A stretch of DNA of 64,000 nucleotides from Zunongwangia sp. HGR-M22 (GTDB lineage: Bacteria > Bacteroidota > Bacteroidia > Flavobacteriales > Flavobacteriaceae): the NCBI RefSeq assembly GCF_027594425.1, contig NZ_CP115159.1, positions 857,001-921,000 on the forward strand, in the 5' to 3' direction. The notes beneath the pieces are model-generated. The model did no database searches and had not been told where the DNA came from. It saw nothing but the letters and a program-made list of their open reading frames with translations. The position numbers were made by a program, and so were the translations under genes. This document shows positions 20,536 through 30,932 of the stretch, one piece after another; position 1 is the stretch's first letter; each line of letters opens with the position of its first letter.

Positions 20536-20557
20536 GTTTGAATTTAATACTCAAAAA

Positions 20558-20569
20558 GTGGAGTCGGAG
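20558..20569 (+). repeat. tmRNA-end copy of the 12-bp direct repeat
   Basis: GTGGAGTCGGAG covers the tmRNA acceptor 3' strand plus one flanking base. It matches 15247-15258 exactly and in the same orientation, 5.3 kb away. See the finding on an ssrA-associated island. Confidence 0.4.
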
Positions 20570-20957
20570 GGGTTCGAACCCTCGTCCAAACAAGCAATTC
20601 AGAAGCTTTCTACACGCTTAGTTTTCACTTGGATTGTCGGGAAAAAATCTGGCTGAAAACGACCTAATCTTTTCCGTATCCTCAATTAAGTTTCAGAACT
20701 GCATCAAGATCCTACAGTTCCTATATTTACTTTATCGGTGCCTCTGGTGTGGACGCCGTAAATCAAGGCTTCCACGAGACATCTCGGCTCCCTACCTAGT
20801 AGGGACTAAGCAAACCTACTATGATTCGGTTACGCAGCCAAGGCGTAGTTATTCTCGCCGTTTAAAAAAGTGTGAAATATGAGATTTACGAGCTATATCC
20901 CAGCGCTCGACGTGCTTACAACTCAATTAGACTCGCTGTCAAAACCAAGTCGACCCC
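20559..20957 (-). ncRNA. ssrA: Transfer-messenger RNA (tmRNA)
   Basis: tmRNA rescues stalled ribosomes by acting first as alanyl-tRNA and then as an mRNA for a degradation tag. The 5' end reads GGGGTCGACTTGGTTTTGAC and the 3' end reads GGTTCGAACCCCTCCGACTC followed by CA. The first seven bases (GGGGTCG) pair with CGACTCC with one G-U pair. The T-arm GGTTCGAACC is intact. The terminal CCA is not fully encoded. An open reading frame inside gives the tag GENNYALAA followed by TAA. Size is about 399 nt, normal for a one-piece tmRNA. Protein-like ORFs across this stretch are not genes. Confidence 0.96.
20830..20859 (-). other. tmRNA proteolysis-tag reading frame
   Basis: On the minus strand the codons GGC GAG AAT AAC TAC GCC TTG GCT GCG TAA encode GENNYALAA and a stop. 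The ending ALAA is the universal ClpXP-type degron, and the whole tag closely resembles the Bacteroides-type tags. Confidence 0.93.
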
Positions 20958-25653: not shown

Positions 25654-25674
25654 ATAAGTAATGGAGTTTATATG

Positions 25675-25706
25675 AAAAGCTATCTTTTGGATAGCTTTTT
25701 TTAATT
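25675..25706 (+). terminator. Terminator after EEP gene
   Basis: A perfect 10-bp stem, AAAAGCTATC (25675-25684) with GATAGCTTTT (25690-25699), is followed by T6. It lies between convergent genes and may serve both strands. Confidence 0.85.
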
Positions 25707-25743: not shown

Positions 25744-26220
25744 TCAATTATTGAAAATTACCGACGCTTGAAAAATCCTTTGCCTAAAATCTTCAAAATT
25801 AAGCTCAAGAATTTGCTTGAAATCATAGTGATGAAAAGTATTCGCATTTTTACCAATATGGAATGAGCGATAATAATACCTAAAGTAATCGGGTAGAATT
25901 AATTTTCCCAAAATGATCGCTCCAAACATATAAGGACTGCGTTTACCGTTACCCAAGCATAAATATTGTAGCGCGATTTCATCTTCAACCTTGGTTCCGT
26001 AACCGCAAAGTGTATGATAGGCATCATGACGCTCTACTTTTGCGATTAGCTCAAAATTATTTTTATTCAGAAAGTGACCAAGATGATATCCAAAACTTTC
26101 TTGGGGATATTTTAGGAGATCAGAGGTGCTAATATTCCAAGGAATATGATCGCGTTTTAGCCATTTAGTGTATACTTTCTGAGTTTGATCGAATAACCAA
26201 TGAATTAATTTCTTTCGCAT
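25744..26220 (-). CDS. Coq4-like protein
   Basis: 158 aa. RHDAYHTLCGYGTKVEDE contains the HDxxH-x(11)-E metal-binding motif that defines the COQ4 family, followed by EIALQYLCLGNG as in the family. In ubiquinone-making organisms Coq4 binds a long-chain polyprenyl precursor and takes part in ring decarboxylation/hydroxylation within the Q-biosynthesis complex. Flavobacteria use menaquinone, so a different prenyl-lipid role is likely here. No signal peptide or membrane helix is evident. A 19-bp palindrome (26237-26255) lies 17 nt upstream of the start, matching sites in front of the neighbouring genes. It is the last gene of the minus-strand module. Family call good, function unknown. Confidence 0.72.
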   Translation of the reverse strand: MRKKLIHWLFDQTQKVYTKWLKRDHIPWNISTSDLLKYPQESFGYHLGHFLNKNNFELIAKVERHDAYHTLCGYGTKVEDEIALQYLCLGNGKRSPYMFGAIILGKLILPDYFRYYYRSFHIGKNANTFHHYDFKQILELNFEDFRQRIFQASVIFNN

Positions 26221-26236
26221 ATTGATTAATTTAAAG

Positions 26237-26255
26237 TGCTTTGAAAAACAAAGTA
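26237..26255 (-). promoter_or_regulatory. Operator-like palindrome, copy 3
   Basis: TGCTTTGAAAAACAAAGTA: arms T(A/G)CTTTG and CAAAGTA around a 5-nt spacer. It differs from the copies at 27381 and 28353 by one arm base and the spacer. It lies 17-35 nt upstream of the Coq4-like gene. Confidence 0.6.
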
Positions 26256-26274
26256 AATGAGTAAAATTTTTTGA

Positions 26275-27048
26275 TTAATGAGTGGTGGAATGATCTAAGG
26301 CTTTTATATCTTTTTTATACTTCTTAGGAAGTAGAAGTTCTTTTAATACATAATTCATTCTGAAAATTTTGCTTAGGCGATACAAAGGAAGTACACCAAT
26401 AAGCAGCGATTTATTTTTGAAGTTTAGTAAATGCCTCACCCTGGCAGGAGCCATTAAGGTTTGCGCCTCTAATAATAAAAAATAGCGGATGGCACCCAAA
26501 TTCTTTTTGTACTGAATAAAAAGATCTTCGGTGTATTTACTATATTCAAAATTCTGTTTCAGCTGAAGTTCGCGTTGTTTTTCCCAGGCTAAAAAATCTT
26601 CAGGTAGGCCTGCAATCTTCATTTGCTTGCCAACTCTCGAGAAAACTTCAAAAACTTCATTCTTTTCAGCTAAAGTCAGTTTACGTTCCAGTGCTTCAAA
26701 AGCTCTTATAGAATAATCAATAAGCATAAAAAGTACATCCCGATATGCCCAATCTGGTATTCTAGCACCGCGATTTTCTTCAACTTGACCATGAATTTTA
26801 TTCATCTGGTCAATCGCCTGGAAAGCAGCTTTTTCTTCAGCAAAAACAATTAGTTTTGCATAATTCACGGTAGAGAAGAGGCGACCTAAAGGATCTTTTG
26901 GAAGCCTGCCGGTGTAATACAACCAGTCTACCGCTTTATTTAATGCAAATTCTGCAGCAGCTCCGGCAAAAATAAAAAGTATAGTATCTGCCTTACCCCA
27001 AATTTCCCTAACGATAGATTGTTTGCTTGTGAAATATTTGGTTTCCAT
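26275..27048 (-). CDS. DUF2236/MpaB-like (oxygenase-type) protein
   Basis: 257 aa from the ATG at 27048, which lies 2 nt after the stop of the preceding gene. A longer frame starting at 27117 would overlap that gene, so it was rejected. The pattern REIWGKADTILFIFAGAAAE followed by FALNKAVDWLY, then DPLGRLFSTVNYAKLIVFA, then a conserved 'KIHGQV' region and IPDWAYRDVLFMLIDYSIRA matches the DUF2236 fold. Latex-clearing protein and MpaB oxygenases belong to this fold and bind b-type heme. In those enzymes a 'WVHA'-like motif supplies a heme ligand. Here the corresponding stretch appears to read MLIDYS, without the His, so heme binding is doubtful. It is probably soluble or peripheral. It is co-transcribed with the small membrane protein upstream. 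Confidence 0.65.
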   Translation of the reverse strand: METKYFTSKQSIVREIWGKADTILFIFAGAAAEFALNKAVDWLYYTGRLPKDPLGRLFSTVNYAKLIVFAEEKAAFQAIDQMNKIHGQVEENRGARIPDWAYRDVLFMLIDYSIRAFEALERKLTLAEKNEVFEVFSRVGKQMKIAGLPEDFLAWEKQRELQLKQNFEYSKYTEDLFIQYKKNLGAIRYFLLLEAQTLMAPARVRHLLNFKNKSLLIGVLPLYRLSKIFRMNYVLKELLLPKKYKKDIKALDHSTTH

Positions 27049-27050
27049 AA

Positions 27051-27368
27051 CTAATCCCAAAGTCCTACTTGCGCTAATGCAAAAACAAGGCTTAACCAAA
27101 AGATGAAGAGAAAGCAAAATCCGCAGAAAAGGTTAATTATATTTCCGTATTTATGGTCTTTAAAAAATAAATCATGGATCAGGTAATAAAATAAACCACT
27201 GCAGGCACCACCAATCGAAGTGGTAATTATAGGGATATACACCCAGCTTTCAATTTCGCCAACTATTAATAAGATGACTGCCAATAAGAGTAATGCAATT
27301 CCTGCTCCGGTAAGTGCTCGTTTAGAGGCCAAAGCGTAATTTAATTTCAATGGATGTTCTATAGTCAT
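27051..27368 (-). CDS. Small integral membrane protein of the palindrome-controlled module
   Basis: 105 aa starting MTIEHPLKLNYALASKRAL, with about three membrane helices (GAGIALLLLAVILLIVG; VYIPIITTSIGGACSGLFYY; IINLFCGFCFLFIFWLSLVF). The ATG at 27368 was chosen because an in-frame ATG at 27395 would lie inside the 19-bp palindrome at 27381-27399. That palindrome stands 13 nt upstream of the chosen start. The gene is followed 2 nt later by the DUF2236-like gene, so the two are coupled. No family is recognised. Confidence 0.65.
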   Translation of the reverse strand: MTIEHPLKLNYALASKRALTGAGIALLLLAVILLIVGEIESWVYIPIITTSIGGACSGLFYYLIHDLFFKDHKYGNIINLFCGFCFLFIFWLSLVFALAQVGLWD

Positions 27369-27380
27369 AATACATAATTT

Positions 27381-27399
27381 TACTTTGAATTTCAAAGTA
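27381..27399 (-). promoter_or_regulatory. Operator-like palindrome, copy 2
   Basis: TACTTTGAATTTCAAAGTA is a perfect palindrome with 9-bp arms around a single T. It lies between the end of the regulator gene and the start of the membrane protein/DUF2236 pair, so it can control an internal promoter. Confidence 0.65.
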
Positions 27400-27414
27400 G
27401 ATTAATAAAAAAAT

Positions 27415-27720
27415 TTAGTTTAGCTCGTTTCTCGATTTTATAATGCTTTCCAACGCATCGATATGCTTTTTAAATGCTAATTTCCCAAGTTTGGTCGCTT
27501 TGTATTTGGTGTTTGGTTTTCGATCTACAAAAGATTTTTGAACCTCAAGATATTCGGCTTTTTCAAGCGCTTTTATATGGCTGGCAAGATTACCATCAGT
27601 CACTGCTAAAAGTTCTTTTAACTGATTAAAACTCGCTTTTTCGTTTACCACTAAAACCGACATGATGCCCAAACGAATTCGGTGATCAAAAAGTTTATTT
27701 ATATTTTCTATAATACTCAC
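27415..27720 (-). CDS. Winged-helix transcriptional regulator
   Basis: 101 aa, entirely a winged helix-turn-helix domain of the ArsR/MarR-like 'winged helix DNA-binding' type. The first helix region is NINKLFDHRIRLGIMSVLV; the HTH is KASFNQLKELLAVTDGNLAS followed by HIKALEKAEYLEV, where DGNLASHI forms the recognition helix; and the wing is SFVDRKPNTKYKATKLGKLA. No ligand domain is present, so it probably responds through protein contact or simple dimer chemistry. It lies 22 nt after a membrane protein gene. This two-gene arrangement recurs in Bacteroidota. Three 19-bp palindromes in front of this module are its obvious candidate operators, which would make it autoregulatory. Confidence 0.87.
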   Translation of the reverse strand: MSIIENINKLFDHRIRLGIMSVLVVNEKASFNQLKELLAVTDGNLASHIKALEKAEYLEVQKSFVDRKPNTKYKATKLGKLAFKKHIDALESIIKSRNELN

Positions 27721-27742
27721 TTGCAGAATTTTTCTTCGGAAA

Positions 27743-28345
27743 TTATTTTTTCTGAAAATTCATTAAACTTCCGTAGATAATATGCAAAAGTCCGAATCCT
27801 ATCGTCCAAAACCAAAATCCGAATCCAGGAAAACAAGCGCAAATTAATCCAATTATTATTTCTGAAATTCCTAAATATTTAATGGTGCCAATCGTATATT
27901 TTGAAGCATTTAGCAAGGCCAGTCCATAGAAAATAAGCATCAGCGAAGGCGCAGCTTCAATTTGGCCTTGATTCAATTTTAAAAGAATATAAGCACCACC
28001 GGTAAGTAACGGAACCAAAAAATGGAAGACTAATCGCTTTGCGGTTTCATCCCAGATCTGCTCATCATTTTTCTTCGCTTCTTTTACAGAAAGAAAGTAT
28101 GCGGTAATTATACTAAACATTAAAACTAGCATTAATATAATCACTATTGGTAATAGAACTTCTGGGTTGGCCACATTTTGATCTTCTAATACATTCGATA
28201 AAAAGAATATTTTAGCAATACCTGCTCCAAGGATCGCATAGATGCCGGCCATAATTCCCGACGTGCCACTTAGAGAAAGAAAGCGCGAAGAGCGATTCAT
28301 TAAATTCCGGATTTCAGATAAATCCTGTGAATAATCTTTATTCAT
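27743..28345 (-). CDS. Integral membrane protein encoded with the winged-helix regulator
   Basis: 200 aa. After a soluble N-terminus (MNKDYSQDLSEIRNLMNRSS) come about five or six hydrophobic helices, for example SGIMAGIYAILGAGIAKIFF, VLLPIVIILMLVLMFSIITA and IGFGLLHIIYGSLM. Small membrane proteins of this kind are often paired with an HTH regulator in flavobacteria, but no function is established. The start codon lies 7 nt downstream of palindrome copy 1, so this gene leads the regulator operon. No enzymatic motif is seen. Confidence 0.75.
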   Translation of the reverse strand: MNKDYSQDLSEIRNLMNRSSRFLSLSGTSGIMAGIYAILGAGIAKIFFLSNVLEDQNVANPEVLLPIVIILMLVLMFSIITAYFLSVKEAKKNDEQIWDETAKRLVFHFLVPLLTGGAYILLKLNQGQIEAAPSLMLIFYGLALLNASKYTIGTIKYLGISEIIIGLICACFPGFGFWFWTIGFGLLHIIYGSLMNFQKK

Positions 28346-28352
28346 ATTAAAG

Positions 28353-28371
28353 TACTTTGAATTACAAAGTA
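28353..28371 (-). promoter_or_regulatory. Operator-like palindrome, copy 1
   Basis: TACTTTGAATTACAAAGTA has 7-bp arms TACTTTG/CAAAGTA and spacer AATTA. It is 7 nt upstream of the membrane protein start and overlaps a TTACTTTG sequence on the minus strand that is close to the Bacteroidota -7 consensus TAnnTTTG. Binding here would block the promoter. Confidence 0.65.
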
Positions 28372-28456: not shown

Positions 28457-29314
28457 TTACTTCACTATCCAAATTGGGATTTTGGCATTAGAAGTCGAAA
28501 GCTCATCGGTAACACTTCCCAGCATTAGGGAAGAAATGTTATTACTTCCTTTATCTGCAACCATCAGTAAATCTGCGCCACGATCTTGTGAATATTCAAC
28601 CAGCTTTTCAGCAATACTAGATTCTTTACTTTCTAAAGAATACTTTGCAATATCATATGGTTTATGCAAGCGCTTTACAAATTTCTCTAAGCGCTCTTCA
28701 CTATGTTTTTTAATCTTAGACTTCAAAGTTTCGTCTGATACATACGGCGAAAACTGCGCAGGTATATGATAAACATGGGCAGCCGTAACCTTAGCATCAG
28801 TGTTTTTTTGAATATAATCTACATTATTGTAAATTTTCATACAGCTTCTTGAAAAATCGGTCCCTATCCAAATATTTTCAATTTTATTTTGAGTTGTCTC
28901 TGGGATAATGATTATAGGGCATTTTACCATTCTTAATAATTTGTCGGTAAGCACGCCAGCACCTTCATAATCGATTTTATTACCAACAAGAATCATATCG
29001 ATATAGTATTTGTTTACGATATGATTAAATATGGATTCTGTGTAAGGATCTTCAGCAATCAGTGTGTCCCATTCTACATCGGCATCAAAACTGCTGTTTA
29101 TTTTCTCGCTAAGTTCATCACCAATAATTTGTTCCAGATCCAAATCTTTTAATTGCTCCTGAAACAATTCAGAAATCGCGTATTTCTTTACATTATGAGT
29201 GAAGTAAACCTTCTTTATGTTCAGTTTTTTGGCTAAAAAAGAAGCATATTTAATAAGGTGATCATCCATTGGTGATAAATCAAGCCCTACCAGTATATTA
29301 TTAATGTTAGTCAT
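28457..29314 (-). CDS. Universal stress protein with two UspA domains
   Basis: 285 aa made of two tandem UspA-type domains. The first begins NILVGLDLSPMDDHLIKYAS (residues about 6-145) and ends with the conserved VKCPIIIIP strand. The second begins NIWIGTDFSRSCMKIYNN and ends with ADKGSNNISSLMLGSVTDEL, whose G-S-x-T loop resembles ATP-binding members, and IPIWIV. Its first 8 nt overlap the end of the BCCT transporter gene, so translation is coupled. USP domains are often fused to or encoded with transporters. Here it likely senses nucleotide or stress state and modulates the transporter. Confidence 0.9.
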   Translation of the reverse strand: MTNINNILVGLDLSPMDDHLIKYASFLAKKLNIKKVYFTHNVKKYAISELFQEQLKDLDLEQIIGDELSEKINSSFDADVEWDTLIAEDPYTESIFNHIVNKYYIDMILVGNKIDYEGAGVLTDKLLRMVKCPIIIIPETTQNKIENIWIGTDFSRSCMKIYNNVDYIQKNTDAKVTAAHVYHIPAQFSPYVSDETLKSKIKKHSEERLEKFVKRLHKPYDIAKYSLESKESSIAEKLVEYSQDRGADLLMVADKGSNNISSLMLGSVTDELSTSNAKIPIWIVK

Positions 29315-30932
29315 TTTGATCGGCTTTTTTCAGGTTTCTTTTTTGTACTATATTTTTAACTACTTCTTCGTAATTTTCTTTTTGTTTTTGCTCTTTCTTC
29401 TTATTTAGTTTTTTCATGTCTTCGTTAAGTCCTTTGTATAAAGAGTAACACATGATGAGCAGAATAAAAGCAAAGGGGAGACCTGTTACAATCGATGCTG
29501 TTTGCAAGGCTTGTAGTCCACCTCCAATAAGTAAAACGGCTGCAATCGTACCTTCGGCGAATGCCCAGAAAATTCGTTGACTAATTGGTGAATCAATTTT
29601 TCCTCCTGAAGTTAAACTGTCTACTACCAAAGAACCAGAATCGGAAGAGGTAACAAAGAATCCTGCAATCAAGATCACTCCAACTACGTTAAGTACGGTA
29701 GCTAATGGAAACTGTTCTAAGAAAACGAAAAGGGCTGTAGCAACATCATCGTTTACTGCTTCAACAATAGCATTATCACCGGTTAAAACTTGTTGGATAG
29801 ATGCGCTACCAAAAGCTGAAATCCAGAAAAAAGTAATTAGAGAAGGAACGATAAGTACACCTAATGTAAACTCTCTAATGGTTCTACCTTTAGACACACG
29901 AGCAATAAAGGTTCCCACAAAAGGAGACCATGCAATCCACCAACCCCAGTAAAATACTGTCCAGTCGTTTTGCCATTTTGTGCCGGTAAAACTTTCTGTC
30001 CAGGTAGAAATCATAAGGAAGTCAGAAAAATAGTTTCCTGTGTTTTGTACGAAAGACTGAAATATAAAAATAGTTGGTCCTAATACTAAAACCAGTAATA
30101 ATAGAACAACCGCAATACGCATGTTCCATTCACTTAAAATTCTTACACCTTTATCTACACCTAAAACTACAGAAAGGGTGGCGACGGCAGTAATACCTGC
30201 AATTAATATCACCTGAGTAGTAATATCGTTGGTGATTCCAAAAACGTGTTCTACACCCGCAGCAATCTGTTGCACTCCAAATCCTAACGAGGTTGCAAGA
30301 CCAAAAAGTGTGGCTAAAACAGCGAAAATGTCAATAATATTTCCAATCCATCCGTGAATTTTATCGCCAATAAATGGATAAAATACCGATCTAATAGTAA
30401 GCGGTAGACCTCGAGAATAGGTGAAATAAGCTAAAGCTAAACCTACTAAAGCATAAATACCCCAGGCGTGGAATCCCCAGTGAAGAAAGGTGAAACTCAT
30501 CGCTTCACGAGCTGCTTCAACGGTACCACCTTCCGCCATTGGTGGCGTGTTAAAGTGGTTTATAGGTTCTGCAATACTCCAAAATAGTAATCCAATTCCC
30601 ATACCTGCGCTAAAAAGCATCGCAAACCAGGAACCTGTTTTAAATTCAGGTTTTGCATTTTGCCCACCAATTCTTAGGTTTCCAAATTTGCTAAATGCGA
30701 GATAAAGCATAAAGCCTAGGAAAATGTTTACTACGAGTATGAAAAACCATCCTCCGTTGTTGGCTACGTAATTTTGTACATTTTCGAATATTTTTTCTGC
30801 TTTTTTATCATAAATAAGTGTCAAGATAATACTCGCAATAATAATAATCGTGGATGTAAAGAAAACCGGACCGTTAACTTCGAGCCCAAAAAGGGACTTT
30901 CCTTCATCACTTCTTTTTACTTTTTCTGCCAT
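29307..30932 (-). CDS. BCCT family betaine/carnitine/choline transporter
   Basis: 541 aa with about twelve membrane helices. The family motif GMGIGLLFWSIAEPINHF is the glycine-rich substrate/sodium site. WGWWIAWSPFVGTFIARVSK followed by GRTIREF is the conserved TM8-loop signature. DSGSLVVDSL is in the expected late position. BCCT carriers import quaternary ammonium osmolytes such as glycine betaine using Na+ or H+. The C-terminus is short and strongly charged (KKLNKKKEQKQKENYEE), possibly an osmosensing tail. It lies 16 nt after a porin gene and overlaps the USP gene. The precise substrate is not determined by sequence. Confidence 0.95.
   Translation of the reverse strand: MAEKVKRSDEGKSLFGLEVNGPVFFTSTIIIIASIILTLIYDKKAEKIFENVQNYVANNGGWFFILVVNIFLGFMLYLAFSKFGNLRIGGQNAKPEFKTGSWFAMLFSAGMGIGLLFWSIAEPINHFNTPPMAEGGTVEAAREAMSFTFLHWGFHAWGIYALVGLALAYFTYSRGLPLTIRSVFYPFIGDKIHGWIGNIIDIFAVLATLFGLATSLGFGVQQIAAGVEHVFGITNDITTQVILIAGITAVATLSVVLGVDKGVRILSEWNMRIAVVLLLLVLVLGPTIFIFQSFVQNTGNYFSDFLMISTWTESFTGTKWQNDWTVFYWGWWIAWSPFVGTFIARVSKGRTIREFTLGVLIVPSLITFFWISAFGSASIQQVLTGDNAIVEAVNDDVATALFVFLEQFPLATVLNVVGVILIAGFFVTSSDSGSLVVDSLTSGGKIDSPISQRIFWAFAEGTIAAVLLIGGGLQALQTASIVTGLPFAFILLIMCYSLYKGLNEDMKKLNKKKEQKQKENYEEVVKNIVQKRNLKKADQND

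Follow-up and report, generated by a model that had tools for sequence, protein, structure and literature searches.

A putative winged-helix regulon with a directional palindromic operator and changing membrane and lipid cargo in Bacteroidota

The 2025 Lipocone superfamily paper describes operons that join a DUF2809 protein (Skillet Lipocone), a protein of six transmembrane helices (6TM) and a winged helix-turn-helix (wHTH) regulator, and it predicts isoprenoid-lipid or exopolysaccharide roles for them, with such genes flanking (PMC12419801). For the HAAS/PadR systems, the same text proposes that a small regulator is set free by a sensor in the membrane (PMC12419801). A third point of comparison is CreD, which Stenotrophomonas maltophilia requires to keep its envelope intact (PMC4689548). 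Here we analyze a locus that resembles all three in part. It lies in a 64,000-nucleotide stretch of Zunongwangia sp. HGR-M22 (contig NZ_CP115159.1, positions 857,001 to 921,000; the window) and consists of five genes, TM200, HTH34, TM105, MPAB and Coq4L, in three units that are each headed by a 19-bp palindrome. From sequence comparison, the five genes appear to be the Zunongwangia edition of a wider Bacteroidota regulon in which the membrane or lipid cargo changes from genome to genome.

The cassette is very probably a kind of DUF2809/6TM/wHTH operon, likened to those operons by their description and not by a sequence match to the proteins of that paper. As there, a six-helix membrane protein adjoins a wHTH regulator. 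We mapped 51 cassettes with TM200, namely the window plus 50 of 60 loci chosen by the motif or by MPAB, so that counts among them are not a census; on the same strand within 6 kb, DUF2809 occurs in 33 of them and DUF218 (ElyC-like) in 12. The window cassette, in contrast, has no DUF2809 gene, and the single DUF2809 match of its genome is unlinked, at C1:3880143, and has no operator. The original prediction was aware of no published pathway with such a composition. In fact its core association had already been published; the operator and the Coq4L/DUF2236 cargo were not found there, and the main text of PMC12419801 contains neither CreD, Coq4 and MPAB nor the terms palindrom- and operator. With HAAS/PadR, the locus shares a separate membrane sensor and a small winged-helix regulator that a membrane signal is proposed to free. 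It differs in that HTH34 belongs to PF13601, scoring only 13.1 bits against the PadR cut-off of 27, and in that no HAAS-type family is among the Pfam matches of TM200 at E<=0.1. The likeness to CreBC-CreD is one of cargo, CreD being the commonest large cargo gene (28/51 cassettes), whereas the regulator here is of the HTH_34 family with a palindromic operator and the window genome gives no CreD match.

All five genes read leftward, on the minus strand. TM200 (27743..28345, ATG at 28345) encodes a polytopic membrane protein of 200 amino acids (aa), the proposed partner or sensor of HTH34, and is followed by HTH34 (27415..27720, GTG start), a 101-aa winged-helix regulator. TM105 (27051..27368, start set to the ATG at 27368) encodes a 105-aa small hydrophobic protein and heads the DUF2236 unit, the second gene of which, MPAB (26275..27048), encodes a 257-aa DUF2236/MPAB_Lcp_cat protein, a predicted heme enzyme. 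Coq4L (25744..26220, ATG at 26220) encodes a 158-aa Coq4-like protein with the motif HDxxH-x11-E. HTH34 matches the whole of the Pfam profile PF13601 (positions 1-80 of 80) at 104.6 bits, with a cut-off of 27; MPAB scores 36 bits against PF09995 (cut-off 23), and Coq4L 32 bits against PF05019, COQ4 (cut-off 22.9), covering only profile positions 124-214 of 221. Neither TM200 nor TM105 has a Pfam family over its cut-off, and none of the five proteins reaches the cut-off of any NCBIfam model.

Three palindromes had been claimed at 28353, 27381 and 26237, 7-17 nucleotides (nt) upstream of start codons and without a fourth copy, and all of this holds. The measured gaps to the ATG are 7 nt for TM200, 12 nt for TM105 and 16 nt for Coq4L, and in the closed 4,040,619-base genome full matches to TRCTTTGNANNNCAAAGTA occur at these three sites alone, with one mismatch at two more places. 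At two or fewer mismatches to TRCTTTGNANNNCAAAGTA, the genome yields 39 strand-hits versus 31 for a reversed control, which is near background. Within the window, the 19-mer at up to three mismatches gives 8 strand-hits versus 2.04 expected, a count reached by 2/100 shuffles, and an extended 23-mer gives 5 versus 0.09 expected, reached by 0/100. The extension, a CTTT that the original prediction did not mention, is conserved in relatives; in the window, sites 1 and 3 carry it and site 2 lacks it. Operator 1 (28349..28371, minus strand; core 28353-28371), before TM200-HTH34, has no mismatch to TACTTTGN5CAAAGTACTTT. Operator 2 (27377..27399, minus; core 27381-27399), before TM105-MPAB, has a perfect core and three mismatches to the extended motif, none of them in the core. 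Operator 3 (26233..26255, minus; core 26237-26255), before Coq4L, has one.

The association of the palindrome with the regulator and its membrane partner was followed in a family survey of 299 genomes, searched for TACTTTGWWWWWCAAAGTA and for TM200 (E<=0.001). The motif occurs in 109 of them (reversed control, 6) and TM200 in 148. All 109 motif genomes encode TM200, and the motif is found in 0/151 genomes without it (Fisher p ~1e-48, a value that overstates independence because the genomes are related). Of the 39 TM200 genomes lacking the exact motif, 20 were fetched, and each has HTH34 and, at TM200, a copy that keeps 12 or more of the 14 fixed bases (at +127 in L246, within an apparently over-long frame). 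A second near copy stands before cargo in 18 of these 20, the exceptions being L242 and L253. In the mapped cassettes TM200 and HTH34 occur together in 51/51, and no other gene family is found in more than 35.

Across the phylum, the motif is present in 40 of 395 genomes (control, 1) and TM200 in 125; 37 of the 40 motif genomes have TM200. In the other three (L259, L260 and L261), which come from outside the family, the neighbor of HTH34 is a different, unrelated membrane protein (197-203 aa), and each time an operator flanks HTH34 on the side away from that protein. Same-strand genes follow this far-side operator in L260 and L261, while in L259 no frame of at least 50 codons does; an exact operator also precedes the different membrane protein in L259 and L261. 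Of the 28 loci that the phylum motif search newly yielded, 25 show TM200 or a cargo family (phmmer) at the site or next to it, and in another, L238, the partner of HTH34 is a different one. In two of L259, L260 and L261, the next genes encode a secreted-looking protein of 261-268 aa and a protein of 736-740 aa.

The operator is also found away from the regulator. Seven motif-picked stretches carry it and lack both TM200 and HTH34, and in all seven it stands 9-99 nt before a gene of a family known from linked cassettes: four times c11 (the 95-aa/187-aa family), and once each Coq4L, an exosortase-like gene and a DoxX-like gene, the last a label whose score lies below the Pfam cut-off. The CTTT points toward the headed gene at 7/7 of these sites; in L107, there is also a second gene at a distance of 87 nt in the opposite direction. 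Each of the seven genomes does encode TM200, either on a separate contig or at a distance of more than 0.5 Mb. An eighth unlinked site, in a locus picked through MPAB (L126), stands before MPAB. A regulator acting in trans would leave just such unlinked operators before cassette families. What can be read directly in the sequences is the operator and where it stands, that it goes with the cassette and that it has unlinked members, together with the conserved ligand residues described below; in the HTH34-operator-cassette regulon itself we have high confidence.

What the operator controls varies widely. Besides DUF2809 and DUF218, the cassettes carry, on the same strand and within 6 kb, DUF1361 (35/51), CreD (28/51), Coq4L (20), a 95-aa hydrophobic protein (19), DUF4153 (12), MPAB (9) and c11 (9), and TM105 was found in 3/51 cassettes. 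Genes headed by the operator in various genomes encode CreD, DUF4153, DUF2809, DUF1361, DUF218, DoxX-like, exosortase-like, Coq4L and DUF2236 proteins. CreD and DUF4153 alternate, with one or the other in 40/51 cassettes and both in 0/51. Coq4L and/or MPAB are present in 10 of the 11 cassettes that have neither, the window included. In the window genome no DUF1361 match was found, in a search whose control likewise matched nowhere. Among the best 80 DUF2236 matches listed, a strict operator lies between 3.5 kb upstream and 150 nt into the gene at 22 (control, 0), including loci of Saprospiraceae, Dyadobacter and Chitinophaga, and ten of these 22 are without TM200 in the stretch examined. The top DUF2236 relative among the 80, a list that may omit records very close to the window, is that of Zunongwangia mangrovi, 77 percent identical. 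The original prediction had the 101-aa protein repress all three units, making the five genes one regulated system. A common system is strongly supported by the comparison (109/109 against 0/151, and the unlinked sites), and repression is suggested by the overlap with the promoter described below. As a description of the system, however, five genes are too narrow, since elsewhere the same operator heads the other cargo just named.

The alternative that survives best concerns what the regulon is for. It holds that the five genes make up a dedicated isoprenoid-lipid pathway for a polyprenyl lipid that Coq4L binds, the DUF2236 protein cleaves and HTH34 senses. Bacteroidota use menaquinone, so a role of Coq4L in ubiquinone synthesis is unlikely. 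The residues H65, D66, H69 and E81 are invariant in 21/21 Coq4L sequences and form an intact HDxxH-x11-E, the metal motif of COQ4 (PMC9774615). In MPAB, R56, T60 and H86 are invariant in 36/36 sequences. Their counterparts in LcpK30 would be R164, T168 and H198, all conserved, with H198 the proximal heme ligand and K167 the distal Lys ligand (PMC6311187). The R-x3-T spacing is identical to that of Lcp and the Arg-to-His distance is 30 versus 34, the equivalence of the His being by order and spacing; the distal Lys is replaced, the residue before the conserved Thr being Ser in 35/36 and Thr in 1/36. MPAB is also shorter, at 257 aa versus 371-375 in the Lcp chains listed. Its predicted structure (predicted local distance difference test, pLDDT, 88.6) finds no fold at E<=0.001 and is closest to t-anethole oxygenase (8s1j; template modeling score 0.62, E 0.008), followed by Lcp (5o1l; 0.51, E 0.04). 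A sequence search of the PDB with the DUF2236 profile gave nothing at E<=1.

Both ligand motifs are therefore intact, and Lcp is among the best folds of MPAB. MPAB and Coq4L lie in successive operator-headed units in Zunongwangia and in Mesonia oceanica and M. aestuariivivens (L132 and L140), the two Mesonia loci being arranged as TM200-HTH34, MPAB and Coq4L-CreD. Isoprenoid lipid head groups, moreover, are the predicted target of the DUF2809/6TM/wHTH operons (PMC12419801). The closest fold, however, is that of an enzyme whose substrate, judged by its name, is no isoprenoid, and an isoprenoid substrate is thus not to be assumed for MPAB. The two genes share only 5/51 cassettes, with Coq4L present alone of the two in 15 and MPAB alone in 4, and the operator also stands before genes that are not known to be connected with isoprenoids. 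That the system deals with an isoprenoid lipid, as originally suggested, stays plausible; that the whole module is a dedicated pathway for it we consider unlikely.

The operator is larger than 19 bp and has a direction, TACTTTG-N5-CAAAGTA-CTTT. CTTT follows the palindrome directly on its 3' side, toward the gene, at 60/60 distinct TM200 sites and 66/85 cargo sites, while a mirror-image AAAG upstream is found at 0/60 and 2/85, respectively. By these one-sided counts the element is directional, and TACTTT...AAAGTACTTT comprises three half-sites. In Flavobacterium, the sigma-A box TAnnTTTG sits at -12 to -5 (PMC9723704), and the left half-site coincides with it, so a bound protein would cover both the box and the start site. 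Copy 1 had been said to overlap such a -7 box, which is roughly right: it reads TTACTTTG, one base off TAnnTTTG, and has a TTG 20 nt farther upstream. A TTG starting 24 nt before the palindrome occurs at 26/60 TM200 sites and 5/85 cargo sites, and at the TM200 sites it is what one would expect if the operator covers a -33/-7 promoter. Six or more T in a row lie just upstream of 55/85 cargo operators versus 9/60 TM200 operators. A sigma-70 consensus scan of the window showed no excess (10 versus 12.1 expected).

It is because the operator overlaps the -7 box and the start region that we favor repression over activation. Small winged-helix proteins, however, can bind ligands directly. HTH34 might instead be an activator, or TM200 plain cargo while HTH34 itself binds a small ligand. 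The first would have to be squared with an operator that covers the -7-like box and the probable start site just before the TM200 start codon, and the second with a TM200 that accompanies HTH34 in every mapped cassette when the next commonest gene reaches 35/51. We find this alternative improbable, slightly more so than the dedicated pathway.

One near match in the genome touches on a further possibility. TACTTTGTAACAAAAAGTA, at G000:C1:2344319-2344337 (L005 1501-1519), differs from the motif by one base and lies between the gene of a 118-aa regulator, which we take to be HxlR-like, and an SDR-like gene; perhaps it is the operator of that regulator and merely resembles that of HTH34. This site, and the promoter-like bases that overlap the motif, would suit the idea that the palindromes belong to another regulator, for instance of the HxlR type, or to a special promoter class, with HTH34 linked to them incidentally, but the strict dependence of the motif on the cassette in 299 genomes, its conservation at unlinked copies and its place beside HTH34 in the three phylum genomes without TM200 make that idea very improbable.

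Taken together, the comparisons make it probable that the palindromes are HTH34 operators, that HTH34 represses its own and the cargo operons, and that TM200 is the signal input. We infer that an HTH34 dimer binds TACTTTG-N5-CAAAGTA, with CTTT as a directional third half-site; the only solved structure that HTH34 matches at E<=0.001 is PH1061 (1ub9). Bound HTH34 would cover the -7 box and start region and so repress its own operon and at least one cargo operon, linked or unlinked. TM200, made from the same transcript, would sense the state of the membrane or envelope and hold or release HTH34, a step in which we have moderate confidence. Derepression would then yield more membrane- or lipid-active proteins: in Zunongwangia TM105, the putative DUF2236 heme oxygenase and the presumed metal-binding Coq4L, and elsewhere CreD, DUF4153, DUF2809, DUF1361 or DUF218.

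A possible route for holding and releasing HTH34 is the N-terminal helix of TM200. The AlphaFold model (mean pLDDT 80.7) has helices at residues 3-22, 27-47, 61-92, 100-125, 129-150, 154-171 and 176-199, that is, a predicted N-terminal helix (3-22) and six further ones; TM200 has no PDB fold match at E<=0.001 and no convincing sequence match either. The N-terminal helix lies before the first membrane helix, in a stretch of 30 residues whose pLDDT is low (54-62), and its conservation across 66 sequences is 3.45 bits per column, versus at most 3.41 in the best transmembrane helices. Three unrelated partners (197-203 aa) start with a similar-looking helix, with weak statistics. The idea that this helix holds the regulator is weak. 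Its fullest form, a phylum-wide one-step module from membrane to DNA, is one that we put forward tentatively and consider more doubtful than sound: an exchangeable sensor of six helices would hold, by its N-terminal helix, a winged-helix repressor, and this repressor would act on a directional three-half-site operator and govern interchangeable envelope and polyprenyl-lipid enzymes, among them a heme oxygenase and a Coq4 that works without ubiquinone.

A number of observations weigh against the repressor and sensor reading or parts of it, to which the selective choice of the 51 cassettes belongs. In an hmmsearch with the N-terminal helix, two partners match at E 0.06 and 0.75 and the third is not among the matches listed; a non-partner frame ranks second, above two partners, and the hhalign probability is 4.9 percent. 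The TTG is absent from more than half of the TM200 sites and from nearly all cargo sites, and the promoter picture thus misfits the latter. With 32.3 and 29.5 bits, two other proteins of the window genome also exceed the cut-off of HTH_34, so family membership alone fails to single out HTH34 as the regulator. Two of the 28 phylum-search loci, L211 and L219, gave no sensible member, the operator of L219 being followed merely by an 11-codon frame. Among the 80 DUF2236 loci listed, 58 are without a strict operator and 62 without TM200 in the stretch examined, which indicates that DUF2236 is often outside the regulon and only sometimes a member. Finally, the cargo is so variable that a shared function is uncertain.

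Other features of the window and its relatives may be noted briefly. A terminator-like hairpin (25674..25700, plus strand) lies between Coq4L and a convergent Exo_endo_phos gene, a weak call with one found versus 1.8 expected by chance. Upstream of the cassette, 28457-30932 contains a Usp-family gene and a second gene that is presumably a BCCT-like transporter; both also precede it in several Zunongwangia, Mesonia and Salegentibacter loci, and not in most mapped family loci. The sole Rfam match in the window is a transfer-messenger RNA gene at 20556-20957 on the minus strand. PADLOC reported Csa3-like and ThsA-like matches (best 1.4e-5), which we read as winged-helix and transmembrane likeness. 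In L211, the CTTT of the operator (1501-1519) points toward a radical-SAM/B12-binding gene, and a histidine kinase gene stands on the other side.

In the open-access PMC literature, supplements excluded, we did not find the operator or the regulon, nor DUF2236 in Bacteroidetes. What appears to be new, within that literature, is the operator with its direction, the strictness with which it depends on the cassette, the members that are unlinked, and the cargo of Coq4L and DUF2236. For widespread and little-known membrane proteins of Bacteroidota, namely CreD, DUF4153, DUF2809, DUF1361 and small membrane proteins, one can now propose an operator, a regulator and a candidate sensor. The proposed regulon also takes in two puzzling enzymes of the phylum, a Coq4 with an intact metal site among users of menaquinone and a DUF2236 enzyme of predicted heme type.

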